NCBI GenBank assembly: GCA_903824045.1
Contig: CAIJVD010000024.1
Location: forward strand, 1-64,000
Source of the DNA: an uncultured Chlorobiaceae bacterium
GTDB taxonomy: Bacteria; Bacteroidota; Chlorobiia; Chlorobiales; Chlorobiaceae
Direction of reading: 5' to 3'
Length of the DNA stretch: 64,000 nt
The translations under genes were made by a program, and so were the position numbers. Of the stretch, positions 25,622-35,750 are shown piece by piece (position 1 is the stretch's first letter; every line of letters starts with the position of its first letter). Below the pieces are notes generated by a model. That model ran no database searches, was not told where the DNA came from, and saw nothing but the letters and a program-made list of their open reading frames with translations.

Positions 25622-25697
25622 AGAGAGCGATTTAGGGGACGCTCTCTACAAACTCGACTTAAGAGATTTAGGGGACGCTCTCTACAAACTCGACTTA
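25622..25697. repeat. REP-like hairpin and 36-bp-period direct repeat beside the RAYT gene
   Basis: Two direct copies of a 33-base unit lie at 25629-25661 and 25665-25697, period 36. With 25622-25629 (AGAGAGCG) as left arm and 25640-25647 (CGCTCTCT) as right arm, the first copy folds into an 8-bp hairpin with a 10-base loop; the second copy keeps only the right half. On the minus strand the foot of the hairpin reads GTAG, the tetranucleotide recognised by REP-associated transposases. The last three bases of the second copy are the RAYT stop codon. Confidence 0.7.
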
Positions 25698-26666
25698 TCG
25701 GTGATGCCGCTTCACAATTTTTTCCACGGCGGCACCAGATATTCCAAGCAAACGCGCCGCTCCGGCATAACTCATCCCAAGCTCCTGCACATACTCCAGC
25801 GCCAGCTTTTTCCTCAACGCCGAACACTCCCGCATTCGACACCCTCCCTGCAATGATTGTAACATTATACCAGTCTCCTCACAAGCTCTTGCTAATCGTT
25901 CGGCAGCTTCAAGCTCCTTGGATGCCGCCGGAAGTCGCGCTTTTACTGAATCTTCAGCTTCAACAAGAATCTCGCGAACAAAATCTCCGCCACCCAAAAT
26001 CCGCTCATCACTGAACTGCTTCTCCCCACGCTTTCTCAGCGATTTCACCTCCGACCATCCCCCTATCGAACGAATCAGCCCTCCCCCGATCAGTTCCGGT
26101 TGACAACCAAGTCCGCTCTCGGATGTTACAAACTCCAGGTACGCGTTCCTGGCTGATGATGCTCGCTGTCCAAAATATCCAAGCACATACTCTCTATCCT
26201 GCCAATCATGCTGAATCCTGTTCATCACTGTTGCATGACCGCTCCACCGATAACGCTCAAGCTCTGCAATTGAACCAACAATCCCTGCTCGCACTGGGTT
26301 GAGGTGAATGTAGCTGACCAGCCTGAGAAAGTAGGGCTCTTCTTCGCAGACAATCGATTTATACCTGTTCTGGAAAAGATAGCCATGCCTCTTGTGCCTG
26401 CGGTTGTAACCTGATGCATAAACGGTTAACAGCTTGCGCATGAAGGTTGACAAACCAGCTGCTCCGCTTCTCAGCAGAATATGCGCATGATTGGTCATAA
26501 GCGCCCATGCGTATATTTTTGTTCCGGTTACGGCAGATACGTTCCCCATCCGGGAAACAAAAAATGCTCGATCAGCATCGTCGGAAACAATGCTCTTCCC
26601 TTCAATCCCCCGCACCATAACGTGATGCAAGGTGCCCGGCGCATCCAGTCTCGGCCCTCTTGGCAT
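25695..26666 (-). CDS. REP-associated tyrosine transposase (RAYT)
   Basis: A 323-residue single-strand HUH endonuclease of the IS200/IS605-related Y1 'TnpREP' family. The HUH pair is His60-Ala-His62 in MTNHAHILLR. Tyrosines at 83 and 87 (TVYASGYNRRH) are the candidates for the nucleophile, followed by RHGYLFQNRYKSI and the SYIHLNPVRAGIV segment typical of the family. Compared with short RAYTs it has a C-terminal extension with a helix-turn-helix near 295-320 (MSYAGAARLLGISGAAVEKIV). These proteins cut and join REP hairpins, are usually single-copy and not flanked by inverted repeats; the hairpin at the stop codon fits this. The gene appears intact. Confidence 0.92.
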   Translation of the reverse strand: MPRGPRLDAPGTLHHVMVRGIEGKSIVSDDADRAFFVSRMGNVSAVTGTKIYAWALMTNHAHILLRSGAAGLSTFMRKLLTVYASGYNRRHKRHGYLFQNRYKSIVCEEEPYFLRLVSYIHLNPVRAGIVGSIAELERYRWSGHATVMNRIQHDWQDREYVLGYFGQRASSARNAYLEFVTSESGLGCQPELIGGGLIRSIGGWSEVKSLRKRGEKQFSDERILGGGDFVREILVEAEDSVKARLPAASKELEAAERLARACEETGIMLQSLQGGCRMRECSALRKKLALEYVQELGMSYAGAARLLGISGAAVEKIVKRHHR

Positions 26667-28458: not shown

Positions 28459-28974
28459 ATGAAAAACAGCAACACGCCCCTTGTCGGAATCCTCATGGGT
28501 TCCGATTCCGATTTCGACATCATGAAAGAGGCCTCCCTGGTGCTCGACGAGTTCCAGATTGCCTCAGAGATTTCGGTCATTTCGGCCCACAGAACACCGC
28601 AGGATCTCGAACAGTACGCCTCATCGGCCATGGAGCGCGGGCTCCGGGTCATCATCGCCGGAGCGGGTGGGGCAGCACACCTGCCCGGCGTTACTGCAGC
28701 CATGACGGTACTTCCGGTTATCGGCGTGCCTATTTTCAGCCAGAAACTCAGCGGCCAGGACGCTCTCTACGCCATCGTGCAGATGCCGGCAGGCATTCCA
28801 GTGGCAACCGTCGGCATCGACAACGCACGCAACGCCGCCCTGCTTGCCGTCCAGATGCTTGCTCTTGGAGACAAGGCCCTTACGGCAGCACTGATCGAGT
28901 TCCGCAAAAAGCTTGCCGATGCATCCCGCCAGAAAACCGGCAAGATCCGCGAAAGGCTGCATGCAAAAAGCTGA
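28459..28974 (+). CDS. purE: N5-carboxyaminoimidazole ribonucleotide mutase
   Basis: A 171-residue class I PurE of purine synthesis, converting N5-CAIR to CAIR. Motifs: [16 protein letters not shown] (phosphate and substrate loop), [14 protein letters not shown] (the His of the SAHRTP motif), [19 protein letters not shown] and [33 protein letters not shown], all class I signatures. Start at ATG 28459 by family comparison; the frame is open to 28423. purK is not adjacent. Its end overlaps the following cupin gene by 14 bases, so the two are likely cotranscribed. Confidence 0.97.
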
Positions 28975-29461
28975 GTTCTGGATCAACCGGCTGCATCTCC
29001 AGCCGCACCCTGAGGGCGGCTACTACCGTGAGACCTACCGAAGCCGGGGTAGATACTCTTTCCCAGACACGAAAGTCTTCGACGGGCCCCGATCCTGGGC
29101 GACCTCTATCTACTATCTGCTTGAGGGAGATGAGCGATCGAAGCTCCACCGGATTCACTCCGACGAGCTCTGGTTCTTCCATGCCGGATCACCGCTCACG
29201 GTCTACATCTTTGAGGAAAATGGTGAGCATCGTTCATTCACGCTCGGCGCCTCACCCGATGAAGGGCAGGTGCTCCAGGAAACAGTGCCTGCAGAGAGCT
29301 GGTTTGGAGCCACTCTGGAAACCCCTGAAAAAGGAGAGTATGCGCTGGTGAGCTGTGTTGTCGCGCCGGGCTTTGACTTCAAAGACTTTGCCTTTGCCGA
29401 CAGAGAGGCGCTGCAGAAAAAATTCACCCGGTACACCCCGCTTATTGAGTACCTAACCTGA
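28961..29461 (+). CDS. Cupin, DUF985 family
   Basis: A 166-residue RmlC-like cupin of the DUF985 type: [23 protein letters not shown] at the N-terminus, [31 protein letters not shown] with the His/Glu ligands, and WFGATLE...[17 protein letters not shown]. Structures of the family are dimeric jelly-rolls; function is not established, although sugar epimerase-like and metal-binding roles have been suggested. Start at 28961 (AAAGG seven bases upstream) overlaps purE by 14 bases; the longer frame from 28913 would overlap far more. Confidence 0.9.
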
Positions 29462-29701: not shown

Positions 29702-32700
29702 CTACCAGCTCTTGCGAAGAGCCGCAATCAGCAGATACGCCCTGCTTCCGTAACCCTCAAGGCCAGCCATCACTCCGGCTTTCAATGTATATTCAACGGT
29801 GGATTGCTTCAGGCTGCGGCTGCTGAAACCCAGCGATCCGCCAAGCCTCACCCTCTCTCTCGATACACTATAAGTCCAGCCGGCACCCTCAAAGCTCACC
29901 TGTGGAGAGGCCTCGAAAAGCCGCTCGGCATGCAGCTCCAGAGAGGGGCTGACACTCCATCCTTCCGGAATAAGGGTAGCGGCCACCCCTGTACGGCAAC
30001 GAACTCCGTTCATCGGCTGCTGGTGTGCCACTCCGTCCGGGGTTTCCACAGAGAAACCGCCGAGCCGATGCATGATGAGCTGTACCGTTGGCTCGACTGA
30101 AAACGTGTCGCTCAGCTTCACCCTGCGCCCCCCTTCCAGCGAAGCGTTGTATCCCCACATTGCGGCGCTCCCTTTGGCTCGATCTGTCCCGAAACGGGCA
30201 TAGATAGAGTAGCGGACCGCCTGCGCGCTTCCTTCGAGATACCATCCTCCCGACTCCCCGACCCCTGTATACCCTCCGATGCTCATGATAAAAAGATCTG
30301 CCTCCCCTGCACTCTCGCCGCTCGAGCCCCGGATCTCCGACTGAAGGATCCCTGTACCAACATAGAGTCCCATAGGGTGATGCCCGGCTCCGGATCCTGA
30401 TGCACCCAGCTCACACCCCGCCTGCAAGGTACCGCTGTATCCGTCTGCCTTGACGGTAACCGAGCCGCTTTCCACTCCTGTAATGAAGCGGCTGCCGGTC
30501 GTGCGACTCCACCATCTGCCCTGCCCTTGTATTGAGATCCGCTCATGGAAACCAGGCACCGAATCATCCCCGAGAGCCTCGGCCATCGGCCCGATGCCAC
30601 CCAGGATCCGCTGCGAATCCGGGACCGGAGGAGCTTCGGGGGAGAGAACATCACTGCCTCCCTTAATCTGCAAGTACCAGTCGCTGCCATACTCCACAAG
30701 CCGAGCCTCTGCTCCCGACACTGTCGAATCGGAAGGATCGAGCGCGAATGCATCAGCGGTGCTTGTTCCGTTGACCTTCACCAGCAGCAGCCCTTTGGAG
30801 GAGGTCATCCTGATTGTTCCGTCCGGGGAGATATTGCGAATCCTGAGGAGGGTCCGGCCCGAAACGCTTCCCCCTGAGGTTCCTTCAGCCCCGACAACCA
30901 GCAGGTCAAGCTGTTCAGGATTGCTGTCACTCCACCCTCCGAGCGCCATATCGAGCCCAATCGCCCCACCACTGCCGACGTAGCTTCCCGTAACCGTCAC
31001 ATGGTCCCCTGCCGAGCCGTTGCGCAGATCAAGCAGCCCGGCGTTCTCGAGATTGCCAGCGATCTCGTAGCGCCCCACAGAACCTGCTTTGGCTCGCAGC
31101 GTCGAACCCGCCTCGATCATGAAAGAGAGCTGCTGGCCGTTTGATGAGGCAAGCTGGATTGGACTGACGGCATCAAGCAGCACGTCACTCCGGTTGACAA
31201 CCTCGATCCGCTCCCACCCTGACGATGCAGCCGGAATCAAGCCCTCCCATCCCGACAAAACAAGCCGGTCTCCCGATATCTCACCGCCCTCCCCACCAGC
31301 AACACCCCCTCCGATTGACGCACTCCCCTGCAACGTCAGGGTGTCGTCACCCGCCCCCATCACCACACTCCCGGTTACCCTTGCCCTGCCGCTCATGAGC
31401 AGTTGGTCGTCATTATCCCCCATATCGATAGTGCCTGTCACCGATGCTGAATCCTCAAGGATCAGGGTGTCACTGCCTGCGCCCAGTGAGAGGTGCCCGA
31501 GAAGAGCGCCGTTTCCTGCCACCCTGACCTTATCAGCTGACTGAGGGCCCTCCACAAAACTCCCCCTTGCCCCGAAACTCCCCGAACGCACCGAATACCC
31601 GAGGCCACTCCCCTTGGTGTCCACACCCGATAGCGTGCCGGTGACAAGCAGATTCATTGGGCCCTCAGCCATAATGGCGGCCGCTGCTCCATGAGCCTCG
31701 GCACTGAGCTCGCCAGCTATTGTCAGTGGGTCATCTGGCGTTGCGCCATGCACTCCGCCCCCCAGGACATAGAGCCCGGCGGCTGAATAACTCCCTGCGA
31801 TGGCCGTAACGCTGCCCGCAAGGGCTCCGCCGATACCCAGAGAGCCCGACTCGACGTAGAGGGCATAGGCATCCGAACTCCCCGCAGAAGCTGAAATACG
31901 CGCTCCAGCGGCAATATCTCCGGTAATGGAAAGCCCTGTCCCTGCATGAAGGGCGTAAGCGGCCGCCTCTCTCTCTACTGTAGCACTGATCTGGCCGGCA
32001 ATATCGCCAATGACCGAAATCGTTGTCACTGCCTCCAGACCTGATGCGCCAGAAAGAGCGGCAGAGGCTTTGATACTCCCGGTTGCAGAGAGTCCCCCAT
32101 AGAGGGTAATCGCACTGCCGCGAACGGCCATAGCCCCGCTGTATCCTGCAGTGGCTGATATGCTCCCTCGAATACCCTCCTCGCGGCCACGTTGGCCTAT
32201 AACGATCGCTCCTCCGGAAGAGAGAGCATAGACCGAGCTGTCATAGCTGTTTTCCGTATTGAGCGCTGTCGCCTCAATGCTCCCTGTTGAGGCAATACCC
32301 CCTGCAATAGAGATGCCTGTTGATTCAGAAGCATTGCCGGTTGCTATGCCATAGACCGAGCCGCCATGACTTGAGCTTGCGGTAAGGGCACCAAGAACTG
32401 CACCGCTTATACTCACGCCTGTCGTAGCGAACATGCCGTAGGCATACTTCCCTCCTGAAGTTGCCGTTACCGAGGCTGACTCCCCAATAGAGCCGTCAAT
32501 CTCGATCGTTGTCGCCGAAAAGATGCCATAGGCGCGAGTTCCTTCGGCTGTTGCAAGCAGAGTGCCCCTACCGGTAATACCGCCATATACCTGCACGGCG
32601 TTGCCGCTGATAGCATAGGCTTCATCCAGCCCCGCCCTGGCAATCACGGATCCCCCGATTCCCACCTTCCCCTCACTCTTGCCAATAGCGACAGATCCGG

Positions 32701-34219
32701 ATGAATAGAGCCCGCAGACCAAGGAGCCTGTCCTGTTCAGCGCTTCCGCCCTGATGCTCCCGGTTTCAGTGATTCCCCCCGAAATATCGAGAGCTGTGGT
32801 CGTATCTCCGCCGGCATAGATCCCATAGACTCTTCCCGCGCTTGCGGCTGATATCGCCGTAACCTCTCCGCTGACCGATCCGCCAATCCGGACTCCCTTC
32901 GCGCCCTGAATCGCATAAGCCCCGCCGTTCTGTGCAGTCGCACCAACCCTGCCGCTCTTGGCAATATCCCTGGTGAGGGTGACGCTCGAAGAGGAAAACA
33001 TGCCGGACGCATCAGTCGTCCCGGCGGTTCCGACTATTGAACCCTCAACACTGCCCGTCATGAGAAGATCTCCTCCTTCGGCATAGATCGCACGGGCTCT
33101 CGAGCTCCCGGATGAGGCAACGAGGGATGCGCCTGAGGTGAGCGTTCCGGTTATTGAGAGTGACGTTCCCGAGTGCAGGGCGTATGCACCGCCGCCACTA
33201 CCTGTCGTTGCGCTGACACTCCCTCCGATATCGCCGATGAGAGAAAGGACTGCATCGGCCTCAATCCCCTCAGCACTCTCCGCTCCGGCAGAAACCGTAA
33301 CGCTTCCGCCTGCCGGGATCCCTCCGTAGAGTGTCACTGTTTTGGCGTGGATCCCGCGAGCGTTATCCTTCGCCGCCCTGGCTTTTACTGTTCCGCTTAT
33401 GCCGGTAGTGCCGCCACTCTGACCAATGGCAATCTCCCCACCGGAAAAGAGGGCGTAGACATTGCTTGCGCTGCTGTTATCCACATTGAGCGCTGTAGCC
33501 GTAATGCTCCCCGCAGAGGTGAGTCCCCCTCCGATGCTCAACAATGCCGTCTCGGCCGTACCGCTCCTGATGGCGTAAACCGTCCCTTCGGTTGTTGCAT
33601 TTGCTGTTACGGAGCCGCTGAACGGGCCTGAAAGAGTGATGTTGCCTACGGAATAGAGGCCGTAAACACCATGCGGGGCCTCTGCAAAAACCGATGCTCC
33701 TGTTGCAAACGCCCCGTCAAGAGTGAGCGTTTTGCCGGCATAGAGAGCGTAGGCCGTTGCGCCGGTCGAGCTGTTGGTAAGATGAGAGCCGAAATCCCCT
33801 GTCAGGACAAGATTGGTCGCCGAGTAGAGCGCAGAACTTGCCGTACTGCTGCTCTGAACTCCGATGGTCAAGAGTGCGTCGGAAAGCGCGAGGCCGATAT
33901 CGCTCTGCACCCTCATGGTTCTGGTATTTGCCGCAGAGGTTGTCAGGCTGAGTCTTACGGGAACCGAACCGTTATTGATCGTAAAGGAAACCGGTCTGGT
34001 AATAATCGAAAGGGTTGAGAGGAGATCGATAACCGGGCCGGAGGTCGTCAAGACGATGCTGCGAGGCAGGGCGGGATCGCTATTGGCATTGATAATGGCC
34101 TGACGCAGGCTCCCGGTCCCGCTGTCAGCGGTATTGATGACTTTTTGAACCCCGCCCTCCACTCTGGCGGCACAAAAAGCCAGCAACAGGAGCAAGAGCG
34201 TTGATGTCCGTCGTTTCAT
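29702..34219 (-). CDS. Giant repeat-rich autotransporter adhesin-like protein
   Basis: A 1505-residue type V secreted protein. Order: signal peptide (1-22, KRR then LLLLLLAFCA); DSGTGSLRQAIINAN (32-46), a start motif common in beta-helical outer-membrane proteins; a passenger of about 20 imperfect 40-residue units around 150-850, each with a YALxSG-type turn, an IxGxI strand and a SGSVxAxA strand; three VTGxxxMGxGDDxLxL units (905-972); an autotransporter-associated region (1000-1170); and a C-terminal beta-barrel from about 1240 ending in the aromatic residue Trp (LLIAALRKSW). The passenger should form a long beta-solenoid outside the cell. Residues 228-408 and 637-817 align without gaps at an offset of exactly 409. 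Ser/Thr/Gly/Ala-rich and cysteine-poor. Ligand unknown; cell aggregation or surface attachment is a reasonable guess. Confidence 0.9.
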   Translation of the reverse strand: MKRRTSTLLLLLLAFCAARVEGGVQKVINTADSGTGSLRQAIINANSDPALPRSIVLTTSGPVIDLLSTLSIITRPVSFTINNGSVPVRLSLTTSAANTRTMRVQSDIGLALSDALLTIGVQSSSTASSALYSATNLVLTGDFGSHLTNSSTGATAYALYAGKTLTLDGAFATGASVFAEAPHGVYGLYSVGNITLSGPFSGSVTANATTEGTVYAIRSGTAETALLSIGGGLTSAGSITATALNVDNSSASNVYALFSGGEIAIGQSGGTTGISGTVKARAAKDNARGIHAKTVTLYGGIPAGGSVTVSAGAESAEGIEADAVLSLIGDIGGSVSATTGSGGGAYALHSGTSLSITGTLTSGASLVASSGSSRARAIYAEGGDLLMTGSVEGSIVGTAGTTDASGMFSSSSVTLTRDIAKSGRVGATAQNGGAYAIQGAKGVRIGGSVSGEVTAISAASAGRVYGIYAGGDTTTALDISGGITETGSIRAEALNRTGSLVCGLYSSGSVAIGKSEGKVGIGGSVIARAGLDEAYAISGNAVQVYGGITGRGTLLATAEGTRAYGIFSATTIEIDGSIGESASVTATSGGKYAYGMFATTGVSISGAVLGALTASSSHGGSVYGIATGNASESTGISIAGGIASTGSIEATALNTENSYDSSVYALSSGGAIVIGQRGREEGIRGSISATAGYSGAMAVRGSAITLYGGLSATGSIKASAALSGASGLEAVTTISVIGDIAGQISATVEREAAAYALHAGTGLSITGDIAAGARISASAGSSDAYALYVESGSLGIGGALAGSVTAIAGSYSAAGLYVLGGGVHGATPDDPLTIAGELSAEAHGAAAAIMAEGPMNLLVTGTLSGVDTKGSGLGYSVRSGSFGARGSFVEGPQSADKVRVAGNGALLGHLSLGAGSDTLILEDSASVTGTIDMGDNDDQLLMSGRARVTGSVVMGAGDDTLTLQGSASIGGGVAGGEGGEISGDRLVLSGWEGLIPAASSGWERIEVVNRSDVLLDAVSPIQLASSNGQQLSFMIEAGSTLRAKAGSVGRYEIAGNLENAGLLDLRNGSAGDHVTVTGSYVGSGGAIGLDMALGGWSDSNPEQLDLLVVGAEGTSGGSVSGRTLLRIRNISPDGTIRMTSSKGLLLVKVNGTSTADAFALDPSDSTVSGAEARLVEYGSDWYLQIKGGSDVLSPEAPPVPDSQRILGGIGPMAEALGDDSVPGFHERISIQGQGRWWSRTTGSRFITGVESGSVTVKADGYSGTLQAGCELGASGSGAGHHPMGLYVGTGILQSEIRGSSGESAGEADLFIMSIGGYTGVGESGGWYLEGSAQAVRYSIYARFGTDRAKGSAAMWGYNASLEGGRRVKLSDTFSVEPTVQLIMHRLGGFSVETPDGVAHQQPMNGVRCRTGVAATLIPEGWSVSPSLELHAERLFEASPQVSFEGAGWTYSVSRERVRLGGSLGFSSRSLKQSTVEYTLKAGVMAGLEGYGSRAYLLIAALRKSW
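31769..32311 (-). repeat. Autotransporter internal duplication, copy 2
   Basis: Codes for residues 637-817. It matches residues 228-408 in register, including ATALN, YALSSGGAIVIGQ, ITLYGG, IGDI and YALHAGTGLSITG at identical spacing. Confidence 0.7.
32996..33538 (-). repeat. Autotransporter internal duplication, copy 1
   Basis: Codes for residues 228-408, the counterpart of copy 2, with ATALN, YALFSGGEIAIGQ, VTLYGG, IGDI and YALHSGTSLSITG at the same spacing. A third, partial relative lies between them (residues about 478-547). Confidence 0.7.
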
Positions 34220-34451: not shown

Positions 34452-35750
34452 ATGAAAAAAAGGGTCGTCATAGTAGGAGGTGGATTTGCAGGGATCAATG
34501 CCGCCAAAATACTCGGCAACAGAGGGGATATCGAGATAACGCTCATTGACCGGAAAAACTACCACCTCTTCCAGCCGCTTCTCTATCAGGTCGCCATGGC
34601 CGCTCTCGGCGAGGGCGACATTGCCGCTCCACTCAGGAACATGCTTGCAGACTACCAGAACATTACCGTCTTCAAAGGAATCGTCACCGGTGTTGATGTC
34701 GAGAACAAAATTGTCCATACCGATTTCAGGGAGATACCCTACGACTACCTTATCCTTGCCTGCGGAGTCCAGCACCACTACTTCGGCCACAACGAGTGGG
34801 AGGAGAATGCTCCCGGCCTCAAAACCCTTGCCCAGGCAAAAGAGATTCGCCGCCGGGTGATGGAGGCCTATGAAAAGGCGGAACGCACCACCGACCCGGT
34901 AGAGCGCAAGAAACTGCTGACCTTCGTCATCGTTGGCGGCGGACCGACCGGAGTGGAACTTGCCGGTTCGATCGGAGAGATGAGCCGATACACCCTCTCG
35001 AAGTTCTATCGCAACATCGACCCCAAGCTGACAAGGATCTTCATCGTCGAGGCTGCACCGAGAATACTCGGATCCTTTGCGCCAGAACTGGCAAGCAAGG
35101 CGACACGTTCACTTGAAAAACTCGGCGTACAGGTCTGGACCAGCAGCATGGTCAGCGAGGTCGACGAAAACGGTGTGCAGATCGGCAACGAGCGCATTGA
35201 AGCCGCCACAGTGCTCTGGGCGGCAGGCGTCACAGCCATAGGCATCGGCAAAACCATGGGGGTTGAACTCGACCGCATCGGAAGGATCATCGTCGGAGAG
35301 GATCTCAGCATTCCTTCGCACCCGGAGATCTTTGTGGGCGGTGACCTCGCTCACTTCAGCCTCGAAAACGGCAACGCACTCCCCGGCCTTGCCCCTGTGG
35401 CACTGCAACAGGGACGTGCTATCGGCAAAAACATCCTCTGCGATCTCAAATCAAAATCAAGAAAAGCATTCCGCTACATGGACAAGGGCCAGATGGCCAC
35501 CATCGGCAAAAACAAGGCGATTGTCCAGTTTGGCGGCATCAAGTTCGACGGCATCGCAGCTTGGTTTACCTGGCTTCTGGTGCACATCTACTTCCTCACC
35601 AGCTTCCGCCACCGCGTCTTTGTGCTCCTGCAGTGGGGATGGTCGTACTTCACCTTCAGCTACGGCGCTCGCCTGATCGTCAACAAGGAGTGGCGCTTCT
35701 ACCCTGACGCCATCAGAAAGGCGGTCTGCTCCGACGGAGAGGAGGGGTGA
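34452..35750 (+). CDS. ndh: Type II NADH:quinone dehydrogenase (NDH-2) family
   Basis: A 432-residue membrane-associated flavoprotein that would oxidise NAD(P)H and reduce quinone without pumping protons. Two dinucleotide folds are present: FAD site KRVVIVGGGFAGINAAKIL (2-20) and NAD site FVIVGGGPTGVELAGSIGEM (about 158-177). The second FAD motif is VGGDLAHF near 298, and PLLYQVAMAALGEGDIA is the NDH-2 signature. The hydrophobic segment AAWFTWLLVHIYFLTSFRHRVFVLLQWGWSYF (about 370-400) is the usual amphipathic membrane anchor. Sulfide:quinone reductase is related but lacks this arrangement. A small membrane protein gene overlaps its stop codon. Confidence 0.92.
   Translation: MKKRVVIVGGGFAGINAAKILGNRGDIEITLIDRKNYHLFQPLLYQVAMAALGEGDIAAPLRNMLADYQNITVFKGIVTGVDVENKIVHTDFREIPYDYLILACGVQHHYFGHNEWEENAPGLKTLAQAKEIRRRVMEAYEKAERTTDPVERKKLLTFVIVGGGPTGVELAGSIGEMSRYTLSKFYRNIDPKLTRIFIVEAAPRILGSFAPELASKATRSLEKLGVQVWTSSMVSEVDENGVQIGNERIEAATVLWAAGVTAIGIGKTMGVELDRIGRIIVGEDLSIPSHPEIFVGGDLAHFSLENGNALPGLAPVALQQGRAIGKNILCDLKSKSRKAFRYMDKGQMATIGKNKAIVQFGGIKFDGIAAWFTWLLVHIYFLTSFRHRVFVLLQWGWSYFTFSYGARLIVNKEWRFYPDAIRKAVCSDGEEG

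Follow-up and report, generated by a model that had tools for sequence, protein, structure and literature searches.

The window analysed here is a stretch of 64,000 nucleotides from an uncultured Chlorobiaceae bacterium, and one large gene occupies its positions 29702..34219, read on the minus strand from an ATG at 34219 to a stop at 29702. The initial annotation of an open reading frame of 1505 residues at this place proved to be real, and the frame is intact; orthologous frames, including that of C. ferrooxidans, are 1520 and 1515 aa long. The gene lies between two neighbours on the plus strand. On the right, a divergent gene for an NDH-2-type NADH dehydrogenase (34452..35750) carries Pyr_redox_2 and NDH2_C domains and matches NDH-2 structures; on the left, a convergent gene encodes a DUF985 cupin (28913..29461; PF06172, 170 bits), supported by synteny. 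Past the NDH2 gene lie argD and TonB/ExbD genes, and past the cupin lies hemN. A gene resembling a REP-associated tyrosine transposase (25695-26666, minus strand) is found between a GFO/IDH gene and hemN, which are separated by about 60-200 bp in most other genomes examined.

The encoded chain has the order of parts of a classical autotransporter (all features within the gene are on the minus strand). It opens with a putative Sec-type signal peptide at residues about 1-22 (MKRRTSTLLLLLLAFCAARVEG; 34154..34219), whose sequence appears typical by eye. The C-terminal part comprises an AC_1 autochaperone domain (PF18883, residues 1069-1169; 30713..31015; 35.3 bits, cut-off 27.1), a linker helix predicted by AlphaFold2 (residues 1201-1219; 30563..30619) and a PF03797 beta-barrel (residues 1237-1466; 29822..30511; 60 bits, cut-off 26), the predicted strands of which continue to residue 1504. 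The last residue of the chain is the aromatic W, relatives end in W or F, and TamB is present in the same genome. With the whole protein as query, hmmscan returned no Pfam or NCBIfam match, even at E 1; the PF03797 and AC_1 matches were seen after the protein was cut into three pieces. Since both domains then score over their cut-offs, the whole-protein negative is a filter effect, and annotation pipelines may miss repeat-rich autotransporters of this kind. An AlphaFold2 model of residues 860-1505, built with six sequences (mean pLDDT 78, pTM 0.49), contains 12 long barrel strands and the helix 1201-1219. Foldseek matched this model to EspP, EstA, AIDA-I, BrkA, Hbp and NalP, with a TMt of 0.85 and an rmsd of 2.9 for the AIDA-I transport unit (4mee), and a profile of the C-terminal part also matched Hbp and BrkA by sequence. 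The two Pfam domains, the helix and the AIDA-I match bear out the proposed autotransporter identity, and the C-terminal barrel on which that proposal depended is present. This architecture, like the block copy, the orthologues, their conserved site and the purifying selection described below, is read from sequence, and we infer from it that the passenger would be exported and displayed on the cell surface.

The passenger begins with an N-terminal solenoid cap (residues 24-127; 33839..34150), which the model gives with low confidence (pLDDT about 45-65) and which is conserved in C. ferrooxidans. It is followed by 24 predicted beta-solenoid rungs (residues 128-873; 31601..33838), supported by a rung table, the AlphaFold2 model and an identity peak at 29 residues. 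In the hand-cut table, 15 of the 24 rungs measure 29-30 aa, three mid rungs 33 aa and three long rungs 37-41 aa; the remaining three, at the array ends, are of other length. The repeat unit is therefore not about 40 residues, as first proposed, a length that only the three long rungs approach or reach. Rungs are about 30% identical at any lag and their consensus alternates small and hydrophobic residues; therefore, a beta-solenoid fold is likely for the passenger. The model of residues 24-880 agrees with this fold (three strands per rung, pLDDT 86, pTM 0.86), from an alignment of two sequences only. AlphaFold2 is known to give confident yet unrealistic solenoids for perfect repeats (PMC11795689), a concern that the low likeness among the rungs would lessen but not remove. 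Of the structure anticipated earlier, the solenoid and the 12 long barrel strands were both predicted, but the passenger model found no significant match among solved structures with Foldseek, and a direct PDB sequence search with the whole protein gave nothing useful. Analysis of the passenger pieces with hmmscan detected no Pfam adhesin domain or family; likewise, no enzyme domain or known binding domain was found, and no insert of enzyme-domain size interrupts the rungs. Nearer to the barrel, residues about 897-980 (31280..31531) form short 21-aa rungs with an RTX-like G-x-G-x-D motif, visible as an offset-21 diagonal. Their profile matches the Ca2+-dependent beta-helical antifreeze region of MpAFP (3p4g, E 2.6e-6), although the likeness is confined to this short segment.

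Within the array, the strongest self-diagonal of the protein joins two blocks at an offset of 409 residues. Copy A (residues 222-408; 32996..33556, rungs 4-9) and copy C (residues 631-817; 31769..32329, rungs 17-22) align over 187 residues without a gap, with 90/187 identical (48%) and a BLOSUM62 score of 440; the runner-up among the self-diagonals scores 177, and five shuffles of the whole protein reached 47-60. The offset, equal to 13 rungs, also has the highest identity autocorrelation in the array (0.291), followed by 29 (0.165) and then 250, 247, 438 and 159 (median 0.106). The ungapped 409 register of the initial annotation, and the stronger diagonal which it predicted for a self-comparison, are thus both upheld. 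Its sequence landmarks were placed correctly except for YALH, which lies at 346/755, one residue before the stated place and at the same offset. A register of this kind could also arise by convergence of unrelated rungs under the same structural rules, without any block copy, as all rungs share the consensus and are about 30% identical at any lag. However, the identity of A and C reaches 48% over a long ungapped stretch, and the rungs correspond in order: 4, 6, 7, 8 and 9 are the reciprocal best matches of 17, 19, 20, 21 and 22, and rung 5 has rung 13 as its best and rung 18 as its second-best match. When the rung order was permuted freely, 0 of 20,000 permutations reached the observed six-rung diagonal, and the same result (0/20,000) was obtained with the long and mid rungs fixed in place, so that none of 40,000 permutations matched it. 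Together with the A/C clade in the tree described below, the permutation test refutes a convergent origin, to which we assign a practically negligible probability. The sequence comparison instead indicates that several rungs were duplicated together as one block, in agreement with the earlier proposal of a several-unit duplication. At the DNA level, A and C are only 55% identical (34% at third codon positions), and their identical residues share 32 identical codons, where 27.6 would be expected from codon usage; the copying event is therefore old. Tandem Repeats Finder detected no array in the window, because the copies are too old at the DNA level.

A single block of 180 residues is nevertheless not the whole story. 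The window protein contains three superunits (starts at 214, 464 and 622), each opening with a pair of one long and one mid rung, and the A to B spacing is common to orthologues. The third partial relative noted earlier at offset 250 is real and corresponds to the long/mid pair of superunit B (residues 464-533; 32621..32830), detected with a pair HMM at 107.8 bits. With the pair profile, pairs start at residues 242/492 in C. ferrooxidans, at 237/487 in genome G028 and at 240/490/706/951 in genome G042, where the contig breaks inside the array. The pairs thus number three in the window protein, two each in C. ferrooxidans and G028, and four in the broken G042 contig. The A to B spacing is exactly 250 in 4/4 orthologues compared (window, C. 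ferrooxidans, G028 and G042). In the tree, the A and C blocks fall together in one clade, separate from a clade of B blocks (100/99); of the two extra copies in G042, at least D groups with the B blocks, and the other (C) is unplaced. These relationships indicate that A and B are old and common to the orthologues, and that C derives from A. The block at offset 409 was not found in C. ferrooxidans or G028, nor in any orthologue found. It might have existed in the ancestor and been lost from the C. ferrooxidans group, rather than gained in the window lineage. Copy A, copy C and the A block of C. ferrooxidans are equidistant (90, 92 and 89 identities over 187 residues; site patterns 27/26/29), and neither the tree nor AU tests order copy C relative to the split from C. 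ferrooxidans, the result being a star. The equidistance implies that C was made about the time of the lineage split, or before it with later loss. Loss of an ancestral C is nearly an even prospect in our view, yet it falls slightly behind, as no orthologue found carries a C-type block at that place and a single gain is simpler than gain plus loss.

The orthologues also share their genomic site. The autotransporter gene lies between the cupin and NDH2 genes in the window, C. ferrooxidans, G028 and G019, the last from a second genus; in G042 it adjoins NDH2 and the contig ends before the cupin. Thus, five species from two genera carry the gene at the conserved site. In the further 20 genomes examined, an empty gap of 104-221 bp separates the cupin and NDH2 genes, and the NDH2 gene itself is present in 84/86 Chlorobiaceae genomes. 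The pattern reflects either many losses of an ancestral gene or the arrival of a gene at the same site on more than one occasion. For the pair C. ferrooxidans and G028, dN/dS is 0.27 across the whole gene and 0.31 across the passenger, which indicates purifying selection on these close orthologues; the gene is therefore maintained. Synonymous divergence between the same two loci (L033/L034) is uneven, being about 0.11 in the passenger and AC part, 0.31 in the barrel and 0.43 in the adjoining NDH2 gene, a pattern that would fit a more recent exchange of the passenger. A few kb away from the autotransporter gene of C. ferrooxidans lies a tandem array of 102-bp units (12 copies, 89% match; L033:1-1219).

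Relatives of the window protein occur in 29/86 Chlorobiaceae genomes. A scan of genome contigs with the single protein yielded no relatives; an alignment of the conserved C-terminal part then found five loci, one of them in C. ferrooxidans, and the C-terminal profile revealed no relative outside Chlorobiaceae among 394 Bacteroidota genomes. Large autotransporters had been thought to be seldom described in green sulfur bacteria. As far as titles and abstracts show, the literature searched contains no relevant link between Chlorobium and autotransporters, and a survey of autotransporters describes classical members from Proteobacteria, Chlamydiales and Fusobacteria. The implied rarity does not hold, since PF03797 proteins of any kind score over the cut-off in 47/86 Chlorobiaceae genomes, about 25 of the passing ORFs have at least 1000 aa, and the longest has 3977 aa. 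The genome of the window organism itself encodes a second PF03797 autotransporter (contig C25:1189-1938; L031; 667-aa open frame, 65 bits), which is absent from the matches of the window gene's barrel and whole-protein searches. Two giant ORFs of 3526 and 2797 aa (L051 and L052), with several large tandem arrays, are distant kin of the window passenger. Strong block diagonals were also observed elsewhere in the family, at 245 residues in C. ferrooxidans, 461 in G042 (62% identical over 420 aa), 95 in G079, 99 in G043 and 138 in G010 (93% over 270 aa); a 414-bp array with 5.6 copies is present in G010.

Compared with known systems, the protein resembles type Va autotransporters such as AIDA-I and Ag43 in its PF03797 12-strand barrel, AC_1 domain, linker helix and long predicted beta-solenoid without enzyme domain. 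It differs from them in rung length (29-30 aa, with rungs of 33 and 37-41 aa at periodic places), in a passenger that matches no Pfam family or solved fold, and in having relatives in no family other than Chlorobiaceae within the sampled Bacteroidota genomes. A known adhesin family, as expected for self-associating autotransporters (AIDA-I/Ag43/TibA), was not detected by Pfam in the passenger pieces. The protein is also unlike an RTX protein of type I secretion, in which a long array of RTX nonapeptides makes up the main body: only a short stretch is RTX-like, and the export domain is a PF03797 barrel. The C. ferrooxidans DSM 13031 orthologue (L053, the 1520-aa open frame) occupies the same site with 47-48% identity and the same A to B spacing, but is without the C block and has its own strongest self-diagonal at 245. 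Replication of multi-rung blocks in passengers is already known, with BigE of Ralstonia as the extreme case (PMC3419190). Like BigE, the window passenger was enlarged by replication of a multi-rung block on top of smaller repeats; however, BigE contains eight copies in 10,429 aa, and the window protein one 187-aa block copy and a partial third relative. The window protein is thus a further case of a known autotransporter type, and block growth is usual for repeat proteins.

In the mechanism that we propose, the chain would cross the inner membrane by Sec, the C-terminal 12-stranded barrel would insert in the outer membrane, and the passenger would pass out through it. The AC_1 domain would then nucleate folding of the 24-rung, ~29-residue beta-solenoid standing on the cell surface, where the pairs of long and mid rungs every few rungs would bear extra polar loops. 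Blocks of several rungs would have been copied in register, altering both how long the stalk is and how many loop pairs it carries; in the window lineage an A-type block is present once more, 409 residues downstream, as C. We consider this explanation as a whole quite probable: a classical type Va autotransporter with a solenoid passenger and a role as adhesin or spacer.

By analogy, the role of the passenger would most likely be that of an adhesin or spacer stalk. Among the characterised solenoid autotransporters that lack an enzyme domain, the majority are adhesins (AIDA-I, Ag43, pertactin), which speaks against a non-adhesive spacer, shield or calcium-dependent surface layer component. The RTX-like short rungs near the membrane and the lack of a known binding domain agree with such a component, and we hold it to be unlikely, though a serious candidate. 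It is also tempting to speculate that the protein helps photoferrotrophic Chlorobium to adhere to Fe(III) minerals or to stay clear of them. A Cyc2-like cytochrome-porin is encoded in 4/5 genomes with the gene at the site and in 18/81 others (Fisher p 0.014), but the test lacks independence, since three of these four genomes are closely related. Moreover, Chlorobium sp. N1 (G030) has a Cyc2-like gene but an empty site (L072), and the wider family shows no association (p 0.80). The association with photoferrotrophy is thus weak, and we regard a mineral role as very unlikely. Cyc2-like homologues occur in 22/86 genomes of the family, all of one genus. The copy in the window's own genome (contig C32:6415-7644; L093; ARQTGQTCAACH) gave no match to NCBIfam and is presumably Cyc2-like, judged from its motif; the organism may therefore oxidise Fe(II).

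More broadly, green sulfur bacteria commonly encode classical autotransporters, whose passengers lengthen through duplication of blocks of complete rungs; the block sizes seen are 28-30, 57-60, 95, 99, 138, 245-250, 409 and 461 residues. One could imagine that a Chlorobiaceae-specific solenoid family tunes its reach and its loop-borne binding sites quickly by block copying, and that the copy at the NDH2 site serves contact with minerals or partner cells in photoferrotrophs; we offer this as a speculation that would be correct only with considerable luck. The four orthologues at one site, three of which are close relatives, constitute a natural series for the gain and loss of solenoid blocks.
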